A DNA stretch of 9,522 nucleotides from an uncultured Desulfomonile sp. (GTDB taxonomy: Bacteria; Desulfobacterota; Desulfomonilia; Desulfomonilales; Desulfomonilaceae), in assembly GCA_903853735.1 (NCBI GenBank), contig CAINUH010000419.1, forward strand, positions 1 through 9,522, in the 5' to 3' direction. Below the pieces are notes generated by a model. It had not been told where the DNA came from. It made no database searches and saw nothing but the letters and a program-made list of their open reading frames with translations. This document shows, piece after piece, positions 787 to 9,140 of this stretch; positions within the stretch are counted from its first letter, which is position 1, and each line of letters begins with the position of its first letter. The position numbers and the translations under genes are program-made.

Positions 787-3700
787 TCACGAAGCTACTT
801 CCAACAAGGCGTCAATCTCCTGGAAAACCTGGTCGTCCCTGAAGTGCTGCAATTCGATAGCCTTGCCGGGACACACCGACGAGCAAATCCCGCAGCCCTG
901 ACAAAGGGCCGGCACGATCTCCGCTTTGTGATCCTCCGTTATGTACGGAGCGCCGTACGGGCACAGCCTCACACATGTCAGGCAAGCCGCACACTTTGAA
1001 GGATCTACCTTGGATATGACGCCGTGGAAAGTCATTTTCTCCTGGCTAAGGATGAGCGAAGCCCGCTGGGCTGCCGCCGTGGCCTGAGCTATTGATTCGT
1101 CAATGGGCTTGGGGTAGTGGGCGAGGCCTGCCAGGAACACCCCTTCGGTAGTGAAATCCACTGGTCGCAATTTCATGTGAGCTTCGACAAAATAGCCATA
1201 AGAGTTCACAGTCACCTTGAAAAGTTGCCCAATTTCCTTGTTTGATTCAGCCGGGTCAATTGCCGCTGCCAGCGTAAGAAGATCCGCTGGAATAATGATG
1301 TCCTCATCCAGTACAGGATCTCGCACGATCACGTTCACTCGGTCTCCAGCCGCCTCCACTCTTGGCTTGGCCTCCGGATCGTATCGGACAAAGATGGTCC
1401 CGGATCTTCTGGACTCGGTATAATACTTCTCCAGGAGACCATACGTCCTCACATCCCGGTATAAAACATAGATATTTGCATCGGGATTGATTTGCCTGAG
1501 TCGCTCAGACAGCCGCACCGACGCAGAGCAGCACACCTTTGAACAATATGGTCGTTCGTCGCATCTGGATCCCACGCACTGGATGAATACGGCATTTCGT
1601 ATTTCCTTGAGCTTAGGATCTCCGGCAATGATACGCTCTTCCAGGCTATGCTGTGTTTCCACTGCGGTGTGTTCACCGTACAGATACTCTGTGGGTTTCG
1701 ACTCAATCGCGCCAGTTGCTATAACGGCTGCACCGAATTCGATTTCGTGCGGTTCGGCACCCATCGGCATGATCTTGCCTTTGAAATGCCCCACATGGCC
1801 TGTCAGATCGAAGAAGCCGGCATTCTTGAATACCTTGATTTTGGGATGGTTTTTCACCTTGGAAATCAAGCCGTCCAGGAAAGGCTTCACAGGTTCTCCG
1901 TGGATGGTCTTTTCAATAGAAACCGCGTTGCCTCCAAGGCTATCGTTTTTCTCAATCAAATAGGTCTGGAAACCTTGATCTGCCAGGTTTAGAGCGGTAG
2001 TAAGGCCTGAGATGCCACCGCCCAAGACCAAGCCGTTTGGAACTACGTCCATTTTGGACTTTTGCAAAGGCGCTAAGAGTCTAGCTCTGGCAACAGCCAT
2101 CCTCGTAAGATCCATGGCTTTCAGAGTCGCATCTTCCTTGCGAGTCGCGTGGACCCAAGAACACTGGTCCCTGACGTTTGTCATGGTAAACAGATACGGG
2201 TTCAAACCCGCCTTTTCCATGGTCAACTGGAACATGGGCTCATGTGTCCTAGGACTGCAAGCCGACACAACAATTCTGTTGAGCTTATGCTCTTCGATGA
2301 TCTGGAGAAACTGCTCCTGAGTATCCTGAGAACAAGTAAAGAGTTTCTCATCGGCGAAAACGACGTTGGGGAGGGTCCTTACATGTTCGACAACTTTGGG
2401 GACATCGACCACGTTGGCAATGTTGATGCCGCACCTGCAGATGAACACACCGATACGGGGCTCCTCGTCTGAAACGTCGCGCTGGGGGGGGAATTCCTGT
2501 TTCGTAGTGAGCGTATGTCGGGCCGAAGCGAGAAGGCGAGAAGACGCTCCCGCTGCCGCGGAAGCCTCGATAACGGTTTGCGGAATGTCTTTGGGGCCCT
2601 GGAACATTCCGGCTGCAAAGATCCCCGGCCGATTGGTAGCAACAGGCTCGAACGAAGTCGTGGAACAGAATAGGGACTCGTTCAGATTCACACCTATCTT
2701 TTCGGCAAGCTCCAGTGATTCATCGGATGTCTTGAGACCCACAGCCAGAATCACCATGTCGAAGGTCTCCGTGTTCAGCCTCTGATTCTCATCCAGATAA
2801 GTGATGTTAAGATTGTGCGTTAATGGGTCTTCTACCACCCGGCTCACCATTGACCTCAAAAACCTGACCCCGCCTTCCTTTCTTGCCCGCTCGTAATAAG
2901 CATCAAAATCCTTTCCATAAGCTCGGATGTCCATGTAAAAGATGGTCGGCTCAATGTTCGGGTCGTGTTCCTTGGCTATAACCGCCTCTTTAATGGATGC
3001 CATACAGCAAACGGAACTGCAGTAAGGCAAACCCTTTCCGAGATCTCGGGATGCAACGCACTGTATCCATGCAATCTTATGCGGGTGCGCTCCATCCGAC
3101 GGCCTTGTGACTACACCTTCGAATGGCCCGGACGCGCTGAGAATCCTCTCCATTTCCAGATTGGTCACTACATTTGGCATCCGGCCGTGACCGAACTCGG
3201 ATATGCGCCCCGTGTCAAAAAGCTCATACCCTGGGGCGAGTACGACCGCCCCCACATCAACGTCTTCCACCACGTCTTGTTGTTCATAGTCCACCGCATC
3301 AGCGAGGCACACTTTCTTGCATACACCGCATTTCTTGCCTCGAAACAGACGGCAGTGCACAGTGTCAATTGTGTACACTGAAGGGATGCCCTGAGCATAA
3401 TCTTTGTAGATCGCCTTTCGGTTGTCATGTCCGAAGTTGTACTCATTGGGTACTTTGGTGGGACACTTCTGCGCGCATGTGCCGCATGAAGTGCACTTTT
3501 CCTGATCAACGTATCGTGCTTTACGGCGTACCTTGACCTTGAAATTTCCCTCCTCGCCCTCAATTCTCTCGATGTGACTGTACGCAAGGATTTCAATATT
3601 CGGATTTTGAGCCAAGGTTTGAAGCTTGGGAGAAAAAATACATGCAGAACAATCGTTTGTCGGAAAGGTCTTGTCCAGTTGGGCCATGACCCCACCGATA

Positions 3701-3877: not shown

Positions 3878-5239
3878 CTATTTATCAATATGTTGACGAG
3901 GTGTCAACACAAGGTGTTCCGAGATTTGCCTGCGAGTCTTCTGGAGGAACGCCCAATCAACCTCTGTCTGCGCTGCCGGAAGGAGTGTGCAATTGTGAAA
4001 CAACGGCTCTGTTTCTATTGGATAAGGGCTGTTTCTCACTGCTTCAGGCCACATCTCCGTCCCCGGAATGGGAGAATATTCCGCGAGCCTGGGAACAGCC
4101 CCGGCTTCCAACACGACATCCACATCGTCCTCGATCTGGTCCCTCGTCTGCCCTGGAAGCCCCACCAGGAGATAGACACCTATCTGAGTCCCGGCGAATC
4201 CAGCCTCGACCAGATTCCTGACTGCCGACAGGAAGGTGTTCCTATCAGTCTTACCGCCAGTACGCGAATGAAATTCGTCTGAGGAACTCTCAAAGCCGAT
4301 TCTTATGGTTTCAAAACCGGCCCGTTTCATGGCAGAAGCAACCCTCGCATCTATGCATGTAGCGTGCAGTCCATTTGGACTGTGCCAACGCATGCCCGGC
4401 AGTCTGTCACCGGCAGCATCCAGAATGGGCAAAGCATGGCGGGGAGCATCCACGAGAAAGGCGTCATCGTAAAGCGCGATATCGTTGATGCCGTACCTGT
4501 TTCTTGCCGCCTGTATTTCTTCAATGACATCGAATACTTTACGCCTTACAAAAAAATGGAATATTTTCCCTGAAGCACAATAAGAGCAGTTGAGCGGGCA
4601 CCCCCTAGAAGTCATGAGCGGCAGGAATCTCACTTTTCGCATCAGGTCTAATGTGGGTGAGAACTCGAACTTCGTTGATTTTTTTTGCGGCATGGGATTA
4701 ATACCGGTGTGTCGGTACAGAGCCTGAGCCAAGACAGCCTCTGCCGGCCCGGAAAGGACTTCGTGCGGTACGCAGTGATGGAGTGCGTGGTTGGGAAGCA
4801 AAGAAGCGTAGATTCCTCCGAGCAATATGGGAACACCCTCGAAAACTTTCCTGAGAAGTCCGATGGCTTCCCTGACCCCTGGATACCAGTAAGTCATGAG
4901 GCTGGTGACGAGAATCGCAGAAGGACGGGGGGCCGACCGGAGGTCTCTCTCTATGACCACAGGGTCCAATCCGTATCGACTGTACGTGCGCGCAATGTTC
5001 GCCAGAGGCAAAGGTTTTTGTATAGGTGTTCTCACAAACCTTCCCTGCGAAAAGGGTTTCACCCGAGCAGGTTTTGCATCAGGGTGATCAGTGTCGAGGC
5101 AGTCCACAAACAGAGGGTCCCAGCCCAGCCTCCTCAGGCCGGATCCAATGACCAGTAGACCCATCGGCCTTGCCCACAGATCATACGCGGCGAAATCGTG
5201 AATCCACGGATTTACCAGTAGTATCTGTGGTCTTGTCAT
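3878..5239 (-). CDS. Radical SAM protein with cobalamin-domain-like N-terminus
   Basis: This 453-residue cytoplasmic protein carries the radical SAM cluster motif C214-x3-C218-x2-C221 (SRGCPLNCSYC). Other barrel features follow: DIALYDDAF (253-261), IRIGFESSS (312-320) and the LLVGLPGQT stretch (357-365). The first 180 residues resemble a B12-binding Rossmann domain. They open with ILLVNPW and include an S-x-L stretch near TSLMTYWYPG (112-121) and a GG at 141-142. The cobalamin-ligating DxHxxG motif is not seen, so cobalamin, if bound, would lack that histidine. Such proteins methylate or rearrange substrates, but the substrate here is unknown. The ATG follows GAGG by 9 nt. It is the first gene of the minus-strand run, ending 52 bp before hdrA, which suggests co-transcription and perhaps a role in cofactor or substrate chemistry linked to the Hdr complex. 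I see no convincing sigma70 promoter upstream. Confidence 0.85.
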   Translation of the reverse strand: MTRPQILLVNPWIHDFAAYDLWARPMGLLVIGSGLRRLGWDPLFVDCLDTDHPDAKPARVKPFSQGRFVRTPIQKPLPLANIARTYSRYGLDPVVIERDLRSAPRPSAILVTSLMTYWYPGVREAIGLLRKVFEGVPILLGGIYASLLPNHALHHCVPHEVLSGPAEAVLAQALYRHTGINPMPQKKSTKFEFSPTLDLMRKVRFLPLMTSRGCPLNCSYCASGKIFHFFVRRKVFDVIEEIQAARNRYGINDIALYDDAFLVDAPRHALPILDAAGDRLPGMRWHSPNGLHATCIDARVASAMKRAGFETIRIGFESSSDEFHSRTGGKTDRNTFLSAVRNLVEAGFAGTQIGVYLLVGLPGQTRDQIEDDVDVVLEAGAVPRLAEYSPIPGTEMWPEAVRNSPYPIETEPLFHNCTLLPAAQTEVDWAFLQKTRRQISEHLVLTPRQHIDK

Positions 5240-5452
5240 CGTTGGTTGCCTCGTGTGCGGCCTTTTGTTAGTGTGTAAAGGATTTCGGGGCCAAGCTACC
5301 CATGACCAATACCGATTCGTTTTGTGGCTTAGAAATTTGAGTAAAAAAATAATCTGGGTAGTGGCAGCCTTGTCTGTCCGTCATTTTCCGAAAGAAACCG
5401 CGAATCGGCACAAAAGGGCAGACATTGGTAATGTGTGAGGCTCCTTATTAAT

Positions 5453-5502
5453 AAAGATCTCATGGAGGTTAAATCCGTGTTCGGTATCAAAGATCTCATG
5501 GA
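5453..5502 (+). repeat. 14-bp direct repeat around the ybaB start
   Basis: AAAGATCTCATGGA occurs exactly at 5453-5466 and again at 5489-5502, 36 bp apart. The offset is twelve codons, so both copies encode KDLME in the ybaB frame. The second copy is inside the conserved start of YbaB. The first lies upstream of the chosen GTG and supplies part of the GGAGG ribosome-binding site. It may be the trace of a small tandem duplication. Confidence 0.7.
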
Positions 5503-5788
5503 ACAGGCCCAGGGCCTACAAACCAAGATTGCCGCCCTTCAGGAAGAACTTGCCGATAGAACAGTTGCCGGAAGTTCCGGAGGCGACATGGTCCAGGTGG
5601 TGGCCAGCGGGATTCAGGAAATTCTCTCCATTAAAATAGAAAAAGAGATCTTGACTTCAGGAGATACCGAACTTCTGGAAGATCTCATTGTGGCCGCAAC
5701 CAATGATGCACTCCTGAAATCACGTGAACTGATGTCACAAGAGATGTCCAAGCTGACCGGTGGGATGCGTCTCCCAGGATTCATGTGA
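5477..5788 (+). CDS. ybaB: YbaB/EbfC family nucleoid-associated DNA-binding protein
   Basis: This is a 103-residue YbaB/EbfC protein, a small dimeric DNA-binding protein of the nucleoid often encoded just before recR. The sequence starts MFGIKDLMEQAQGLQ, continues with a predicted helix (about 3-28), a beta-rich core (GGDMVQVVASGIQEI, then IKIEKEIL), and ends in a second helix with ELMSQEMSKLTGGMRLPGF. This is the full family pattern at normal length. I chose the GTG at 5477 because GGAGG (5464-5468) precedes it by 8 nt and because family members begin MFG or similar. A longer frame from a GTG at 5435 would add 14 non-conserved residues. The stop TGA overlaps the ATG of recR, so the two are translationally coupled. 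No dnaX precedes it; the neighbour upstream is divergent. Confidence 0.93.
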   Translation: MFGIKDLMEQAQGLQTKIAALQEELADRTVAGSSGGDMVQVVASGIQEILSIKIEKEILTSGDTELLEDLIVAATNDALLKSRELMSQEMSKLTGGMRLPGFM

Positions 5789-6378
5789 TGTCTCGACCTC
5801 TGGAGGCTCTCATAAAGGCTCTGAAGAAATTCCCCGGAGTGGGAGAGAAAACCGCGACACGATACGCTTTTTATATCCTAAACGCAAATCAGGAAGAAAT
5901 CGAAGATCTGGTCGTAACTATAAGCAAAGTAAGAGAAAAACTGCGGCTATGCTCCAACTGTTTTAATCTTACGGACATGGATCCTTGCTCAATCTGCTCA
6001 GACCCAAGGCGAGACAAACGTTGCATCTGTGTAGTAGAAAGTCCTCTCGATCTCGTGGCGGTCGAAAAGGCTGCACATTTTAGAGGGGTTTACCACGTTC
6101 TTCATGGACTCCTGTCGCCACTGGACGCGGTGGGGCCGGAGGATATTCGTTTCAGCGAGCTTATAGAAAGAGTGGGAAAAGGTGGAATATCGGAAGTGAT
6201 ATTGGCTCTTAATCCCACCGTCGAGGGCGAAGCAACCGCGGCATATATAGGCGATCGCCTGAACGAAGTGGGAGTTAAGGTTTCACGCATTGCTTATGGC
6301 ATTCCCGTAGGAGGATCTCTAGAATACTCCGATCCACTCACTTTAACCCGAGCCCTGGAAAACAGAAAGGATTTTTGA
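5788..6378 (+). CDS. recR: Recombination mediator protein RecR
   Basis: This 196-residue protein is complete RecR, which acts with RecO (and RecF) to load RecA on single-stranded DNA at gaps during recombinational repair. The helix-hairpin-helix is at about 6-27 (LEALIKALKKFPGVGEKTA). The zinc finger uses C55, C58, C67 and C70. The Toprim domain spans about 78-172, with CVVES (E84) at its start and NPTVEGEAT (142-150) further on. The C-terminal GIPVGGSLEYSD (171-182) is the Walker-like family signature. E. coli RecR is 201 residues, so the length is normal. The start ATG overlaps the ybaB stop by 1 nt (TGATG), and I prefer it to the GTG one codon earlier because MSRPLE matches the usual beginning. 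The gene stop likewise overlaps an ATG that opens a 24-codon frame. Confidence 0.97.
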   Translation: MSRPLEALIKALKKFPGVGEKTATRYAFYILNANQEEIEDLVVTISKVREKLRLCSNCFNLTDMDPCSICSDPRRDKRCICVVESPLDLVAVEKAAHFRGVYHVLHGLLSPLDAVGPEDIRFSELIERVGKGGISEVILALNPTVEGEATAAYIGDRLNEVGVKVSRIAYGIPVGGSLEYSDPLTLTRALENRKDF

Positions 6379-6452
6379 TGGCAACAGTTGATGTACCAGA
6401 CTCAGAGCCAAGGATCGAAGCCCTCCAGGATATCCACCTCGCCTGTGGATAA
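6378..6452 (+). CDS. Possible 24-residue ORF coupled to recR
   Basis: An ATG overlaps the recR stop in a TGATG arrangement, the same coupling seen between ybaB and recR. It opens a 24-codon frame reading MATVDVPDSEPRIEALQDIH and then LACG, with the TAA forming the end of a perfect DnaA box. I do not recognise the peptide. It could be a small coupled protein, the stub of a gene that once followed recR and was cut off, or chance. It has no independent ribosome-binding site and no visible domain, so confidence is low. Confidence 0.2.
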   Translation: MATVDVPDSEPRIEALQDIHLACG

Positions 6453-6477
6453 CTGACGTGTAACCCTGTGGATAACT
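6442..6477. repeat. Two perfect DnaA boxes in a 13-bp direct repeat
   Basis: CCTGTGGATAACT occurs at 6442-6454 and 6465-6477, 23 bp apart, about two helical turns. Each copy holds TGTGGATAA (6444-6452 and 6467-6475), the exact complement of the consensus DnaA box TTATCCACA. Both boxes face the same way and lie on the same side of the helix, as expected for cooperative DnaA binding. Confidence 0.8.
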
Positions 6478-6841
6478 TGTCGGGGTTAGCAAAATATTAG
6501 GGTTTTATACAGAGTGCCCCATCCTGGGGCACTCGTAAAAGATCAATCAAATCAAATACAAATATAAGTGACCGAAATGTCAAGATCCGCTACAAACCCC
6601 GCGTGCACTGCCCGTAAAGTTATAAACAACTGTTGATAAATTGATTTTTGCGCTCCCCGCGAAACCCCCCGCTCCCCCTCGGTCGAAGGCTGTCGGACGG
6701 CGGTGGAAATCCAAAGCATAACAAACCTCTGCGCTGCTGATTTCCGTTACCCGCGTGCACACAACGTGTCCCGACGGATCTGCAAAAAGCCGACCCGGAC
6801 TGAAGGGTTGCGCCGCTCGTGTCAAACTTGTGTCAAATCTG
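6453..6841. other. Non-coding region between recR and the HicB-like gene
   Basis: Apart from the DnaA boxes, the hairpin and the AT-rich tract, I find no gene here. The part 6641-6800 changes to G/C-rich runs (GCTCCCC- and CCCCCC-like) with no conserved frame. An 11-bp sequence CCCGCGTGCAC is repeated at 6598-6608 and 6750-6760. Frames open on both strands in this stretch, but they have no ribosome-binding site and no recognisable protein. Confidence 0.6.
6503..6540. terminator. Strong hairpin downstream of recR
   Basis: GAGTGCCCCA (6512-6521) and TGGGGCACTC (6525-6534) form a perfect 10-bp stem with the 3-nt loop TCC. Outer arms TTTTA (6503-6507) and TAAAA (6536-6540) can extend it across a small internal loop. 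It is the first strong hairpin after recR, so ending the ybaB-recR transcript is its likeliest job. No U-run follows on either strand, so it is not a textbook intrinsic terminator. It also sits inside the DnaA-box cluster. Confidence 0.5.
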
Positions 6842-6847
6842 TTGACG
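6819..6847. promoter_or_regulatory. Possible operator: phased GTGTCAAA repeats and inverted GTCAA
   Basis: GTGTCAAA occurs at 6819-6826 and 6830-6837, 11 bp apart, so on the same helix face. The second copy also forms an inverted repeat, GTCAA and TTGAC with 5 bp between (6832-6846), which overlaps the -35 box of the promoter just downstream. A regulator bound here could block or aid that promoter. HicB antitoxins commonly bind their own promoters, but whether this short HicB-like protein could do so is doubtful. Confidence 0.3.
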
Positions 6848-6870
6848 GAGTCTGTCAGCGATCCTAGATT
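6842..6870 (+). promoter_or_regulatory. Sigma70-type promoter for the HicB-like gene
   Basis: TTGACG at 6842-6847 (5 of 6 to the -35 consensus) and TAGATT at 6865-6870 (a fair -10) are separated by 17 bp. Transcription would begin near 6877 and leave a leader of about 40 nt before the ATG at 6920. This is the best promoter match I see in the window. Confidence 0.5.
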
Positions 6871-6919
6871 GGTAACGATGAATCAAGGAATCGTTTCCCC
6901 TCTATACAAAGGAAGACTC

Positions 6920-7075
6920 ATGGCCAGGGAAGAATTTTTTGATTTCAAGATATTGATGAAATTCGAGGACGGGCCATGGATTGCCCACTGTCTGGAACTC
7001 AACATTGTTTCATCCGGACGGACGCGTGAGCAGGCCCAAGAAGAGATAGTTGATCTCATCTCGGCCCAGGTATAA
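6920..7075 (+). CDS. HicB-like protein, short or truncated
   Basis: The 51-residue product (MAREEFFDFKILMKFEDGPW, then IAHCLELNIVSSGRTREQAQ and EEIVDLISAQV) matches the N-terminal partial RNase-H-like fold of HicB family antitoxins: strand, strand with W-x-AHCLEL, strand, then the TREQAQEEI helix. Family members I know of this subtype run on for another 50 residues or so after the AQV position; here TAA follows at once. None of the three frames after the stop restores an obvious tail, so this is either a clipped pseudogene-like copy or a minimal form. The ATG follows AAAGGAAG closely, and a good promoter lies upstream. No HicA toxin gene is next to it, so a working toxin-antitoxin pair is not supported here. 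The stop overlaps an ATG (TAATG). Confidence 0.6.
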   Translation: MAREEFFDFKILMKFEDGPWIAHCLELNIVSSGRTREQAQEEIVDLISAQV

Positions 7076-7182
7076 TGTTTCAGTTCCAGTTGCGTGAGCG
7101 TGTCCTCATTTCTGAAAGTTCACGAACTACCCCGATTCATTCTGCCTGTCGATATTACGGGAAGAAACGCTACTCAGTATAA
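7075..7182 (+). CDS. Possible 35-residue ORF coupled to the HicB-like gene
   Basis: An ATG overlapping the preceding stop (TAATG) opens a 35-codon frame: MFQFQLRERVLISESSRTTP followed by IHSACRYYGKKRYSV. The product would be basic and has no family signature I recognise. It is not HicA-like, since the usual glycine/histidine-containing HicA core is absent. It could be the altered tail of the HicB-like gene, a small coupled protein, or chance. Confidence 0.2.
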   Translation: MFQFQLRERVLISESSRTTPIHSACRYYGKKRYSV

Positions 7183-7287
7183 ACTATCCCCATGTTATCG
7201 CTACCGGAAAAAGGTAAGGCCTGGAACCCTCTCAGCCAAAAAAAACACGAAGTGAAAAATTTAGTCTTTTCAACACACTCCGTCTTT

Positions 7288-7293
7288 GATAAT
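7288..7293 (+). promoter_or_regulatory. Weak -10-like element before the GT-C-like gene
   Basis: GATAAT (5 of 6 to TATAAT) lies 47 bp before the ATG at 7341. A poor -35 candidate, TTTTCA, sits 15 bp upstream of it. The spacing is short, so this is only a hint that the gene has its own promoter. If real, transcription would start near 7300 and exclude a TTG start at 7302. The rest of the 7183-7340 gap shows only an A-run (near 7240) and no gene. Confidence 0.2.
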
Positions 7294-7340
7294 GGTTATT
7301 CTTGCAAGGGCCTTCATTCGGACGATTCGACGGGGATGGG

Positions 7341-9140
7341 ATGATGGAAGAACCGGAAGTTAGAGGTTCCAGATTGTGGGTAATTGCCGTAGGACTGGCC
7401 ATTTACAGTATCGTACTGACCGCTGCTACGGGGGATATAGGATTCGACGCGGACGACTGGTGGATATTCAGTTGGGCATACTGGTACGATTTCCCCGCGT
7501 CTGTGGCAGTCTATGCTCATGAGGCCCTCAGACCGATTGAAGGCATGTACTGGTTGAGCCTTTTCCAACTCGTAGGATTTGACAGGCCGGTTTTCCATCT
7601 GTTCTCGCTGCTTCTCTGGGTGACGGCGTCCGGCCTCATGGGTCTGGCTCTTTCTCAGGTGTTCACAAGAAACAGAACCTTCGTGATCCTGAGCATGCTG
7701 TTCATTTTCTTTCTGCCGACAGTCTCATCGCTGACTTACATAATCTTCACGGACAATTCCCGTTTAAGTTTAGTGTTTTTTTGGAGTTCGGTCATAGCGT
7801 TTCAGATGTGGGCGAAGAGGTCCGCCTCGTTGCCTGGGCTCGCATTGCCGCTTTTCCTGTACATTCTATCCTTTCTGACGTACGAGGCGCCGAGCCTTAT
7901 GATATTTGCCGTGCCTATGTTCGTATTGCCTATCAGAAGGAAACAGGGGTACCAGTTTTGGGAAAGGATCTTTTTGGTGAAGCTCGGTGCAGGGATTTTG
8001 TCGGCAGTGGTGCTAGCTATTGCGATTAGATTCTTTTTTCTTAACGGCGGGGCCGTCGAACATCGGCACCTAATTCCCCCGCTGAAATTGATCTTGTCCT
8101 ATCTGGGGCTGCTGCCTTCTTATCTAGTCGCTCCGTTCATCACTTTCTGCAGGGAACTGTGGGTGTGTGTTCTCGCGTGGGCGGTGGGCGTCTGGGTTGC
8201 AGTCCAGTTGTATCGGTCAAGATCACGACCTGACGAGAAGAATCAACCCGACGAACTTGCCAAGTGGGACCAGGGAATTTCTTACAAGATCATTCTGGGC
8301 GTTGCCATCCTCTTTTTGGGCATGCTGCCCTACCAGATCGCAGGATACGGCGGCGGGGTTCCAAACCTGACGGACACACTGTTGGCAAAGTGGGGAATAA
8401 TTGCTCATGGCGACACTACGTGGTTTAACTTTAATTGGGCAAGCCGGATATATTCATCCGCATCCTGCGGCATAGCAATTATTCTCGCGGCGGTGTTTAC
8501 CGCATGGAAGAGCGTCAAAGCGCGATTCGTTTCCCAGTTGGCTGCGGTCGTGGTCATAGTTTTTATGACGGCTTTTCACGTAGGGCTCAGCATCGACTGG
8601 AAGGAAGCCGCGGGCATTCGTAACGACCTCGTTAAAAGCTTGGTAACTCAGATCCCCGACGTAAAACCGGACACCAATTTTGTATTTCTGGATCTGGAAT
8701 CCTATCACAAGAGAGCCGCAGTAGTGAGGCGATGGATGGGACTGCGCGAACTCGTCCGGATGCTATACGACGACCGCACTCTGGGCGCTTGGTACGTATA
8801 CCCTTATGCCTGGGAACCACCTAACAAGATTTTTCAACAGGCAATTGCACAAGCAGCAGGTTTTGTGAGTAGAGGCATGAAACTGAGTGCTCCGGCTCCT
8901 CATGACAGTCTCTTGCTACTAAAACGAGCCGGGAGCAAACTTGTTATATTGGACAAGATTGCTTCCGGTGACGGATTGGCCCCAACTGGTATCTCATGGA
9001 GAGGGGTGAATTCATTACGGTCCAATCGTAACAGGATCCTTTTCTCGTCGAGCTTGATGGATGGTCACTGGGAGAACGCCCGAAGCCGTTGGATCAGGGG
9101 CCTCGTATCAACGTTGAAACTTTCCAGAGTGGCAAGATAG
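7341..9140 (+). CDS. Polytopic membrane protein, GT-C glycosyltransferase-like
   Basis: This protein of about 599 residues has around eleven hydrophobic segments (roughly 11-30, 83-105, 114-136, 141-159, 165-197, 210-234, 249-270, 271-290, 317-336, 370-389, 395-414), then a soluble C-terminal part of about 180 residues. The first outer loop carries an acidic pair, DADDWW (36-41), where GT-C enzymes place catalytic or metal-binding acids. The stretch RPIEGMYWLSLFQLVGFDRP and the later SRIYSS also resemble GT-C membrane proteins. GT-C enzymes move sugars from polyprenyl-phosphate carriers outside the inner membrane; acceptor and sugar cannot be told. I chose ATG 7341 (or 7344 just after) because GGGGATGGG precedes it; an upstream TTG at 7302 would add 13 polar residues. 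An exporter gene follows 40 bp later. Membrane topology is clear; the enzyme class is a moderate guess. Confidence 0.75.
   Translation: MMEEPEVRGSRLWVIAVGLAIYSIVLTAATGDIGFDADDWWIFSWAYWYDFPASVAVYAHEALRPIEGMYWLSLFQLVGFDRPVFHLFSLLLWVTASGLMGLALSQVFTRNRTFVILSMLFIFFLPTVSSLTYIIFTDNSRLSLVFFWSSVIAFQMWAKRSASLPGLALPLFLYILSFLTYEAPSLMIFAVPMFVLPIRRKQGYQFWERIFLVKLGAGILSAVVLAIAIRFFFLNGGAVEHRHLIPPLKLILSYLGLLPSYLVAPFITFCRELWVCVLAWAVGVWVAVQLYRSRSRPDEKNQPDELAKWDQGISYKIILGVAILFLGMLPYQIAGYGGGVPNLTDTLLAKWGIIAHGDTTWFNFNWASRIYSSASCGIAIILAAVFTAWKSVKARFVSQLAAVVVIVFMTAFHVGLSIDWKEAAGIRNDLVKSLVTQIPDVKPDTNFVFLDLESYHKRAAVVRRWMGLRELVRMLYDDRTLGAWYVYPYAWEPPNKIFQQAIAQAAGFVSRGMKLSAPAPHDSLLLLKRAGSKLVILDKIASGDGLAPTGISWRGVNSLRSNRNRILFSSSLMDGHWENARSRWIRGLVSTLKLSRVAR

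Follow-up and report, generated by a model that had tools for sequence, protein, structure and literature searches.

A bacterial chromosome is usually taken to have a single oriC that keeps its position. The datA and DARS loci of Escherichia coli are also non-coding clusters of DnaA boxes; they lie away from oriC and are not known to be full copies of the origin or to sit at a skew switch. Putative double oriC chromosomes in DoriC, which were proposed from sequence, carry more than one origin-type DnaA-box cluster each, in one case on a genomic island, and none of the four representative bacteria in the table of that article belongs to the phylum considered here (Gao 2015, PMC4403523). In multi-origin cyanobacteria, irregular GC skew accompanies many start sites, and initiation is DnaA-independent in the species named in that source (PMC7198777). 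For Desulfomonile or Desulfobacterota, no description of an oriC was found in searches of open-licence PMC literature.

Here we analysed a stretch of 9,522 nucleotides from an uncultured Desulfomonile sp. (the window), in which an initial annotation had proposed a chromosomal origin downstream of recR. We find that the DnaA-box cluster at this site is one copy of a non-coding unit of about 220 bp with a fixed geometry, and that the interval 6426-6649 is probably a DnaA-dependent oriC which, in this lineage, was relocated from cdaA to the space between recR and a membrane-protein gene. The case for relocation is built on the homology and geometry shared with a cdaA-linked element, on the switch in skew and gene strand at that element in genome G379, and on a remnant of it at cdaA in genome G463.

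The element resembles an oriC of the E. coli type in having DnaA boxes at both ends of a non-coding unit of about 220-250 bp, in its fixed spacing and AT-rich stretch, and in the skew switch at its G379 homologue. It differs in usually lying upstream of cdaA, with at most one perfect box in each stretch read near dnaA (ten genomes), in its apparent lineage-specific move to recR, and in occurring more than once in 12 of the 18 genomes of the order. With datA and DARS it shares the character of a non-coding DnaA-box cluster; unlike them, the copies have the full origin design and the one in G379 lies at a skew switch. As in the putative double oriC chromosomes, more than one origin-type cluster can lie on one chromosome in the order, although here the copies are of one design, recur order-wide and include a site with a remnant left after the move, in contrast to the cases described in that source (PMC4403523). 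G470, with three copies and a flat skew, is reminiscent of the multi-origin cyanobacteria, from which the order differs in that its sites are DnaA-box elements and DnaA matches occur in all 18 genomes (compare the species named in PMC7198777).

The box cluster and its conservation at recR

The sequence features named in the initial annotation, namely two perfect DnaA boxes, a one-mismatch box, an inverted pair of near-consensus (one-mismatch) boxes and an AT-rich tract, are all present where it placed them (Table 1). The setting is also non-coding as claimed: from the recR stop (6378) up to a small frame that starts at 6920 no gene is convincing, and a longer frame, 6755-7075, has no Pfam match. 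The annotation missed a further, degenerate box at the left end (box 0, which reads ATATCCACA in G463). One of its boxes, that at 6505-6513, exists as described and is retained only in G463 among the aligned copies; it is therefore probably not part of the element's design. The inverted repeat between the left boxes and the AT-rich stretch is not among the pairs predicted across copies. The whole window has 7 boxes, which is not out of the ordinary given an average of 5.94 over 200 dinucleotide shuffles; outside the cluster, one-mismatch sites lie at 3392 and 7375. The clustering is unusual: neither two perfect boxes nor five boxes at up to one mismatch arose in any of 3000 mononucleotide shuffles of 6379-6919, a 541-bp interval that was picked after inspection and hence yields no clean probability.

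Table 1. Positions of the element, its parts and the neighbouring genes in the window
Feature	Position	Strand	Evidence and remarks
ybaB/ebfC, left flank	5462..5788	+	PF02575
recR, left flank	5788..6378	+	RecR_HhH, Toprim_4, RecR_C
Conserved non-coding stretch past the recR stop, common to G463 (contig C153)	6379..6720	.	BLAST 78.6% over 322 bp; gapless alignment from recR to 6719
Whole oriC-type element	6426..6649	+ (orientation as in alignment A1)	30 aligned copies; profile model R1, 224 positions
Box 0, degenerate inverted DnaA box ATATCCACC	6430..6438	+	Columns of the TCCACA core invariant or conserved to 90% or more (30 copies)
Box 1, perfect DnaA box TTATCCACA	6444..6452	-	TGT..ATAA unchanged throughout the 30 copies
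Box 2, perfect DnaA box TTATCCACA, 23 bp from box 1	6467..6475	-	Box scan and alignment of 30 copies
One-mismatch box TTATACAGA	6505..6513	+	Among aligned copies kept only in G463 (TTATGCAGA)
Perfect 10-bp inverted repeat, loop 3, between left boxes and AT-rich stretch	6512..6534	.	Stem imperfect in G463
AT-rich stretch, candidate duplex unwinding element	6534..6570	.	Low mean GC at this offset across copies
Box 3, TTATAAACA, left half of right inverted pair	6620..6628	+	Spacing to box 1 and conserved columns
Box 4, TTATCAACA, right half of inverted pair	6631..6639	-	Spacing to box 1 and conserved columns
Small open frame, 51 codons and stop	6920..7075	+	HicB-like by eye only
Right-flank gene, membrane protein by eye	7341..9140	+	No Pfam match; 76% identity in L178

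The order group of G379, presumably the Desulfomonilales, comprises 18 genomes, all with RecR at 65-79% identity, and G463 is the nearest relative by RecR (79%). Conservation of the boxes downstream of recR in relatives, on which the initial proposal was to be judged, holds for G463, where boxes 0-4 and their spacings are retained at 79% identity to the window, and fails for the other 17 of the 18 genomes, in which no perfect box was found past recR (within 1200 bp, or 926 bp in the case of L132). A general origin context at recR is thus not borne out; given the same 17 genomes, recR is a putative lineage-specific origin site.

In G463, whose assembly is fragmentary with only 3,520 bp in the contig that bears recR, both flanks are identical in kind to those of the window copy, and the right-flank gene, for a 612-aa protein, lies downstream of the element in the same place. 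The small-frame region at 6920 is mostly without a counterpart there. Named organisms among 120 listed homologues of the 612-aa protein are Desulfomonile tiedjei or Desulfomonilaceae. A RecR scan of named genomes returned only distant phyla among its best 80 matches, at up to 55% identity. One locus, L072 (CAMBFS010000088.1), is titled Klebsiella pneumoniae, yet its phylum group includes Desulfomonile-like genomes, which points to a mislabelled assembly; RecR at 74% identity occurs within that group, and the 612-aa protein found no match among 99 of its genomes. The phylum group of a Dadabacteria locus (57 genomes) was also searched and held nothing of use.

An origin-type element family

Using the 342-bp stretch and a box-pair pattern as queries, we extracted 30 copies of the element, that of the window and 29 from 15 genomes. 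Alignment A1 runs from box 0 through box 1 and box 2, 23 bp apart, to an AT-rich part round ATCAA and the right pair, TTATnnACA-nn-TGTTGATAA. The right inverted pair starts 173-176 bp away from box 1 in 29 of the 30 copies and 162 bp away in L228 (G470), and mean GC falls to 0.28-0.31 at +90 to +119 from box 1 (29 copies) versus 0.42-0.56 in the five preceding 15-bp bins. An RNA element was considered and excluded, there being no structure beyond the palindromic box pairs: a test for covarying helices yielded none, the two box pairs being the only pairing predicted, with two-sided change in one of 12 pairs, and Rfam, searched up to an E of 1, matched nothing in the window. Because such structure is lacking, we take the element to be a predicted protein-binding site in DNA.

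To count copies we used R1, a sequence-only profile that was made from the same 30 copies and is hence not independent of them, with up to 127 candidates scored per genome. Full-length matches (E below 1e-7) were found in 17 of the 18 genomes of the order, and 12 of the 18 have at least two; five have a single one (G379, G462, G463, G464 and G453), and G474 has none at this threshold. G463 has an additional partial match and G453 a weak second one at 7.7e-4. Three copies lie on one contig of G470 (2.35, 4.22 and 5.89 Mb), and six were counted in each of G169 and G471, both of them fragmented assemblies that may mix strains. Within the phylum group, presumably Desulfobacterota, 131 of 395 genomes (order members included) have a match at E of 1e-3 or below with five candidates scored per genome, and four of the 131 have at least five; most of these phylum-wide matches are weak and partial, and some will be to any DnaA-box cluster.

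The usual site is upstream of cdaA. Twelve extracted copies adjoin a gene for a CdaA-like diadenylate cyclase (by eye; DAC domain confirmed), in some beside an MreB-like gene, and a thirteenth cdaA-linked copy is on contig C241 of G469. When 16 cdaA loci were searched with R1, filters off, the element was intact in 13, reduced to a right-half remnant in G463, and not found in G453 or G462; each of these last three genomes has a full-length copy elsewhere. Since the cdaA copy of G463 has lost its left half, an intact origin-type element stands at recR while the old site decays, and in this fragmentary assembly no full-length copy was found besides that at recR. Leaving G463 aside, the recR copy finds its closest DNA match at cdaA in G379 (71.7% over 152 bp). 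A FastTree built from 40 copies joins the two recR copies (support 1.00) and nests them among the cdaA-type copies, with weak support for the nesting (0.39 at the nearest fork and, moving outwards, 0.79 and 0.64).

Other types of copy recur as well. One has sua5/tsaC together with a hemW-like gene as its neighbours, by Pfam, in G464 and G462; frames of the same sizes flank it in G397 and G169, and partly in G467, where the contig ends, while G466 and G468 were assigned to this type by element similarity and the tree. Five of the seven genomes with a sua5-type copy also have an intact cdaA copy. A second type clusters in the tree across seven genomes (G470, G473, G469, G475, G472, G453 and G471), separately from the recR pair. 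In G354, two near-identical oriC-like box arrays were seen (L399 and L403).

Paralogues in G471 share only some 220-340 bp round the element with one another, which would fit the duplication of a small unit; four of them (L232, L240, L242 and L243) form a subfamily of copies with L230 of G470. A repeated unit longer than the element, about 350 to 650 bp pairwise, was observed among L245, L246, L252 and L253 (G169) and L248 (G465); the match between L248 and L252 is 220 bp. The paralogues of G471 and G169 look like duplicates that arose within one genome, so the element does get copied inside genomes, or else assemblies are mixed. A simple transposable repeat was tried as an account of the recR copy and is unsupported for it.

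Strand switch, skew and the dnaA neighbourhood

An origin signature is seen in G379, for which the search gave a single copy, located upstream of cdaA within a contig of 402 kb. Sampled GC skew is -0.031 (counting SE 0.007) to the left of the element and +0.048 (0.009) to the right, and the coding strand of long open frames switches from 10,890 plus against 19,197 minus to 14,610 plus against 3,438 minus. For the 24 pieces, which come from one contig and make up about 7% of G379, cumulative skew reaches its minimum at the element (by permutation, P 0.0018 for depth alone and 0.0006 for depth combined with place; Mann-Whitney P 0.0016). Because skew and gene strand both switch there, we take the cdaA-type element as the oriC of the order. 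The proposal that the cluster downstream of recR is a chromosomal origin therefore stands insofar as it is an origin-type element, with homologues in 17 of 18 genomes and that of G379 at a skew minimum; it does not stand for recR as the general context.

Locally, the window has the expected signs, -0.018 (SE 0.017) to the left and +0.040 (0.026) to the right, and the values are not significant. Over windows of up to 4.5 kb, cdaA-linked copies average -0.033 (SE 0.006, 11 left flanks) and +0.023 (0.006, 12 right flanks), these flanks being orthologous and hence not independent, while the remaining copies, recR included, show no switch at -0.014 (0.010, 16) and -0.005 (0.014, 15), which speaks against strong origin use of those copies. 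In G470, we sampled 66 stretches (1.27 Mb; L172, L181, L182, L228-L230 and L263-L322) of its single-contig 6.5-Mb chromosome and found no significant replichore skew (permutation P 0.075 for range; 0.72 without the block at 5.96-6.2 Mb). Within 450 kb, the sign does not switch at any of its three copies: left and right means are +0.004 and -0.012 at 2.35 Mb, -0.008 and -0.014 at 4.22 Mb (the cdaA copy), and +0.007 and +0.051 at 5.89 Mb. The block at about 5.96-6.2 Mb has a strong positive skew and strand bias. In G354, skew from twenty 6-kb pieces was too noisy for placing an origin. Given the absence of a switch at the G470 copies and in the non-cdaA aggregate, and the non-significant skew of the window, second copies could be silent or regulatory.

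An origin beside dnaA was considered and is unsupported in the order: eleven stretches of 12-20 kb from ten genomes, both contig ends being taken for G470, have at most one perfect box each. In G470, dnaA is at position 357 and the DNA sampled there is without a box cluster; in the 1.27-Mb sample, which by design includes dnaA and the three element loci, clusters of at least four boxes (up to one mismatch, 250 bp) occur at the three copies only. A strong DnaA match (E below 1e-60) was found in 11 of the 18 genomes of the order and weaker ones in the other seven; there is no strong match in G471. DnaA-like matches in frames of 387-473 aa, weaker than usual for DnaA, were seen in L160 (G453), L153 and L161 (G471). 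Near dnaA in G473, locus L149 has a 17-bp match to box 2 of the window and its flank, a perfect DnaA box included.

Competing readings and meaning

If the element at recR is an oriC, DnaA would occupy the boxes of the left array as well as those of the right pair, loop or wrap the roughly 175 bp between them and, by analogy with known oriC biology, melt the AT-rich stretch (about 6534-6570) for helicase loading. The recR copy would then be the origin used in the window's cell. Any given copy need not be the active one, since two thirds of the genomes have more than one full-length copy.

This last point leads to the most serious alternative, namely that the recR copy is a non-initiating second copy, an oriC-derived site for titrating DnaA or for switching its nucleotide state in the manner of datA or DARS, with the main origin elsewhere. 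It draws support from the 12 of 18 genomes with at least two full-length copies, from the second type that groups across seven genomes in the tree, from the sua5-type copy in seven genomes, five of which keep an intact cdaA copy, and from the lack of an aggregate skew switch at non-cdaA copies, among them both recR copies. We nevertheless consider it unlikely, as the recR copy retains the whole design, AT-rich stretch included, and resembles the cdaA (origin) type most, and as G463 has a broken cdaA copy and no other full-length copy was found in its fragmentary assembly.

It is far less probable that the cluster is the remnant of an integrated mobile element with an oriC-like origin of its own. 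Such surroundings do exist in relatives: the two copies of G354 lie in stretches of low GC (0.442 and 0.432 over 6 kb), both of which have a phage integrase gene; L403, the one scanned, also has RadC-like and ArdC domains, and a frame of L399 is near-identical, by eye, to the RadC-like one. In addition, G471 paralogues are alike only round the element, one of them near an integrase fragment, and one copy of G169 is near an IS110-type transposase. Because of the integrase genes near both G354 copies and the RadC-like and ArdC domains by one, mobile elements may carry copies of the host's origin design. At the window site itself, by contrast, the two flanks are the same in G463, Pfam found no integrase or transposase among the seven frames scanned, and the copy is most like the cdaA-type element. 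DnaA regulates transcription in bacteria and the boxes lie upstream of a gene, yet a DnaA-regulated promoter region for that gene is the least credible reading of all, since the genes next to the copies differ between genomes and are unrelated, 5200-7400 has no more promoter-like matches than chance would give (2 versus a mean of 1.9), and skew switches at the copy in G379.

With a relocated oriC as the preferred reading, one origin design can be traced through the order, from a common cdaA site to a relocation to recR with its remnant, to losses and to extra copies across species. Since relatives often carry at least two such elements per chromosome, origins in these related bacteria seem to move and multiply, and attempts to predict origins in this group from the surroundings of dnaA or from GC skew may go wrong. 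We tentatively put forward, as a possibility short of an expectation, that chromosomes of the order keep at least two full oriC-type elements as redundant origins, so that a lineage may lose one and rely on another, as G463 (at recR), G453 and G462 appear to, and that where several origins are used the replichore skew is lost, as in three-copy G470. If true, bacteria would offer a natural case of replication from multiple origins under DnaA, and whether one chromosome can run on more than one DnaA-dependent origin becomes testable in a cultured species, Desulfomonile tiedjei, which we infer to be G470. The larger surprise would be less the site at recR than an element that moves and is kept in more than one copy across the order.
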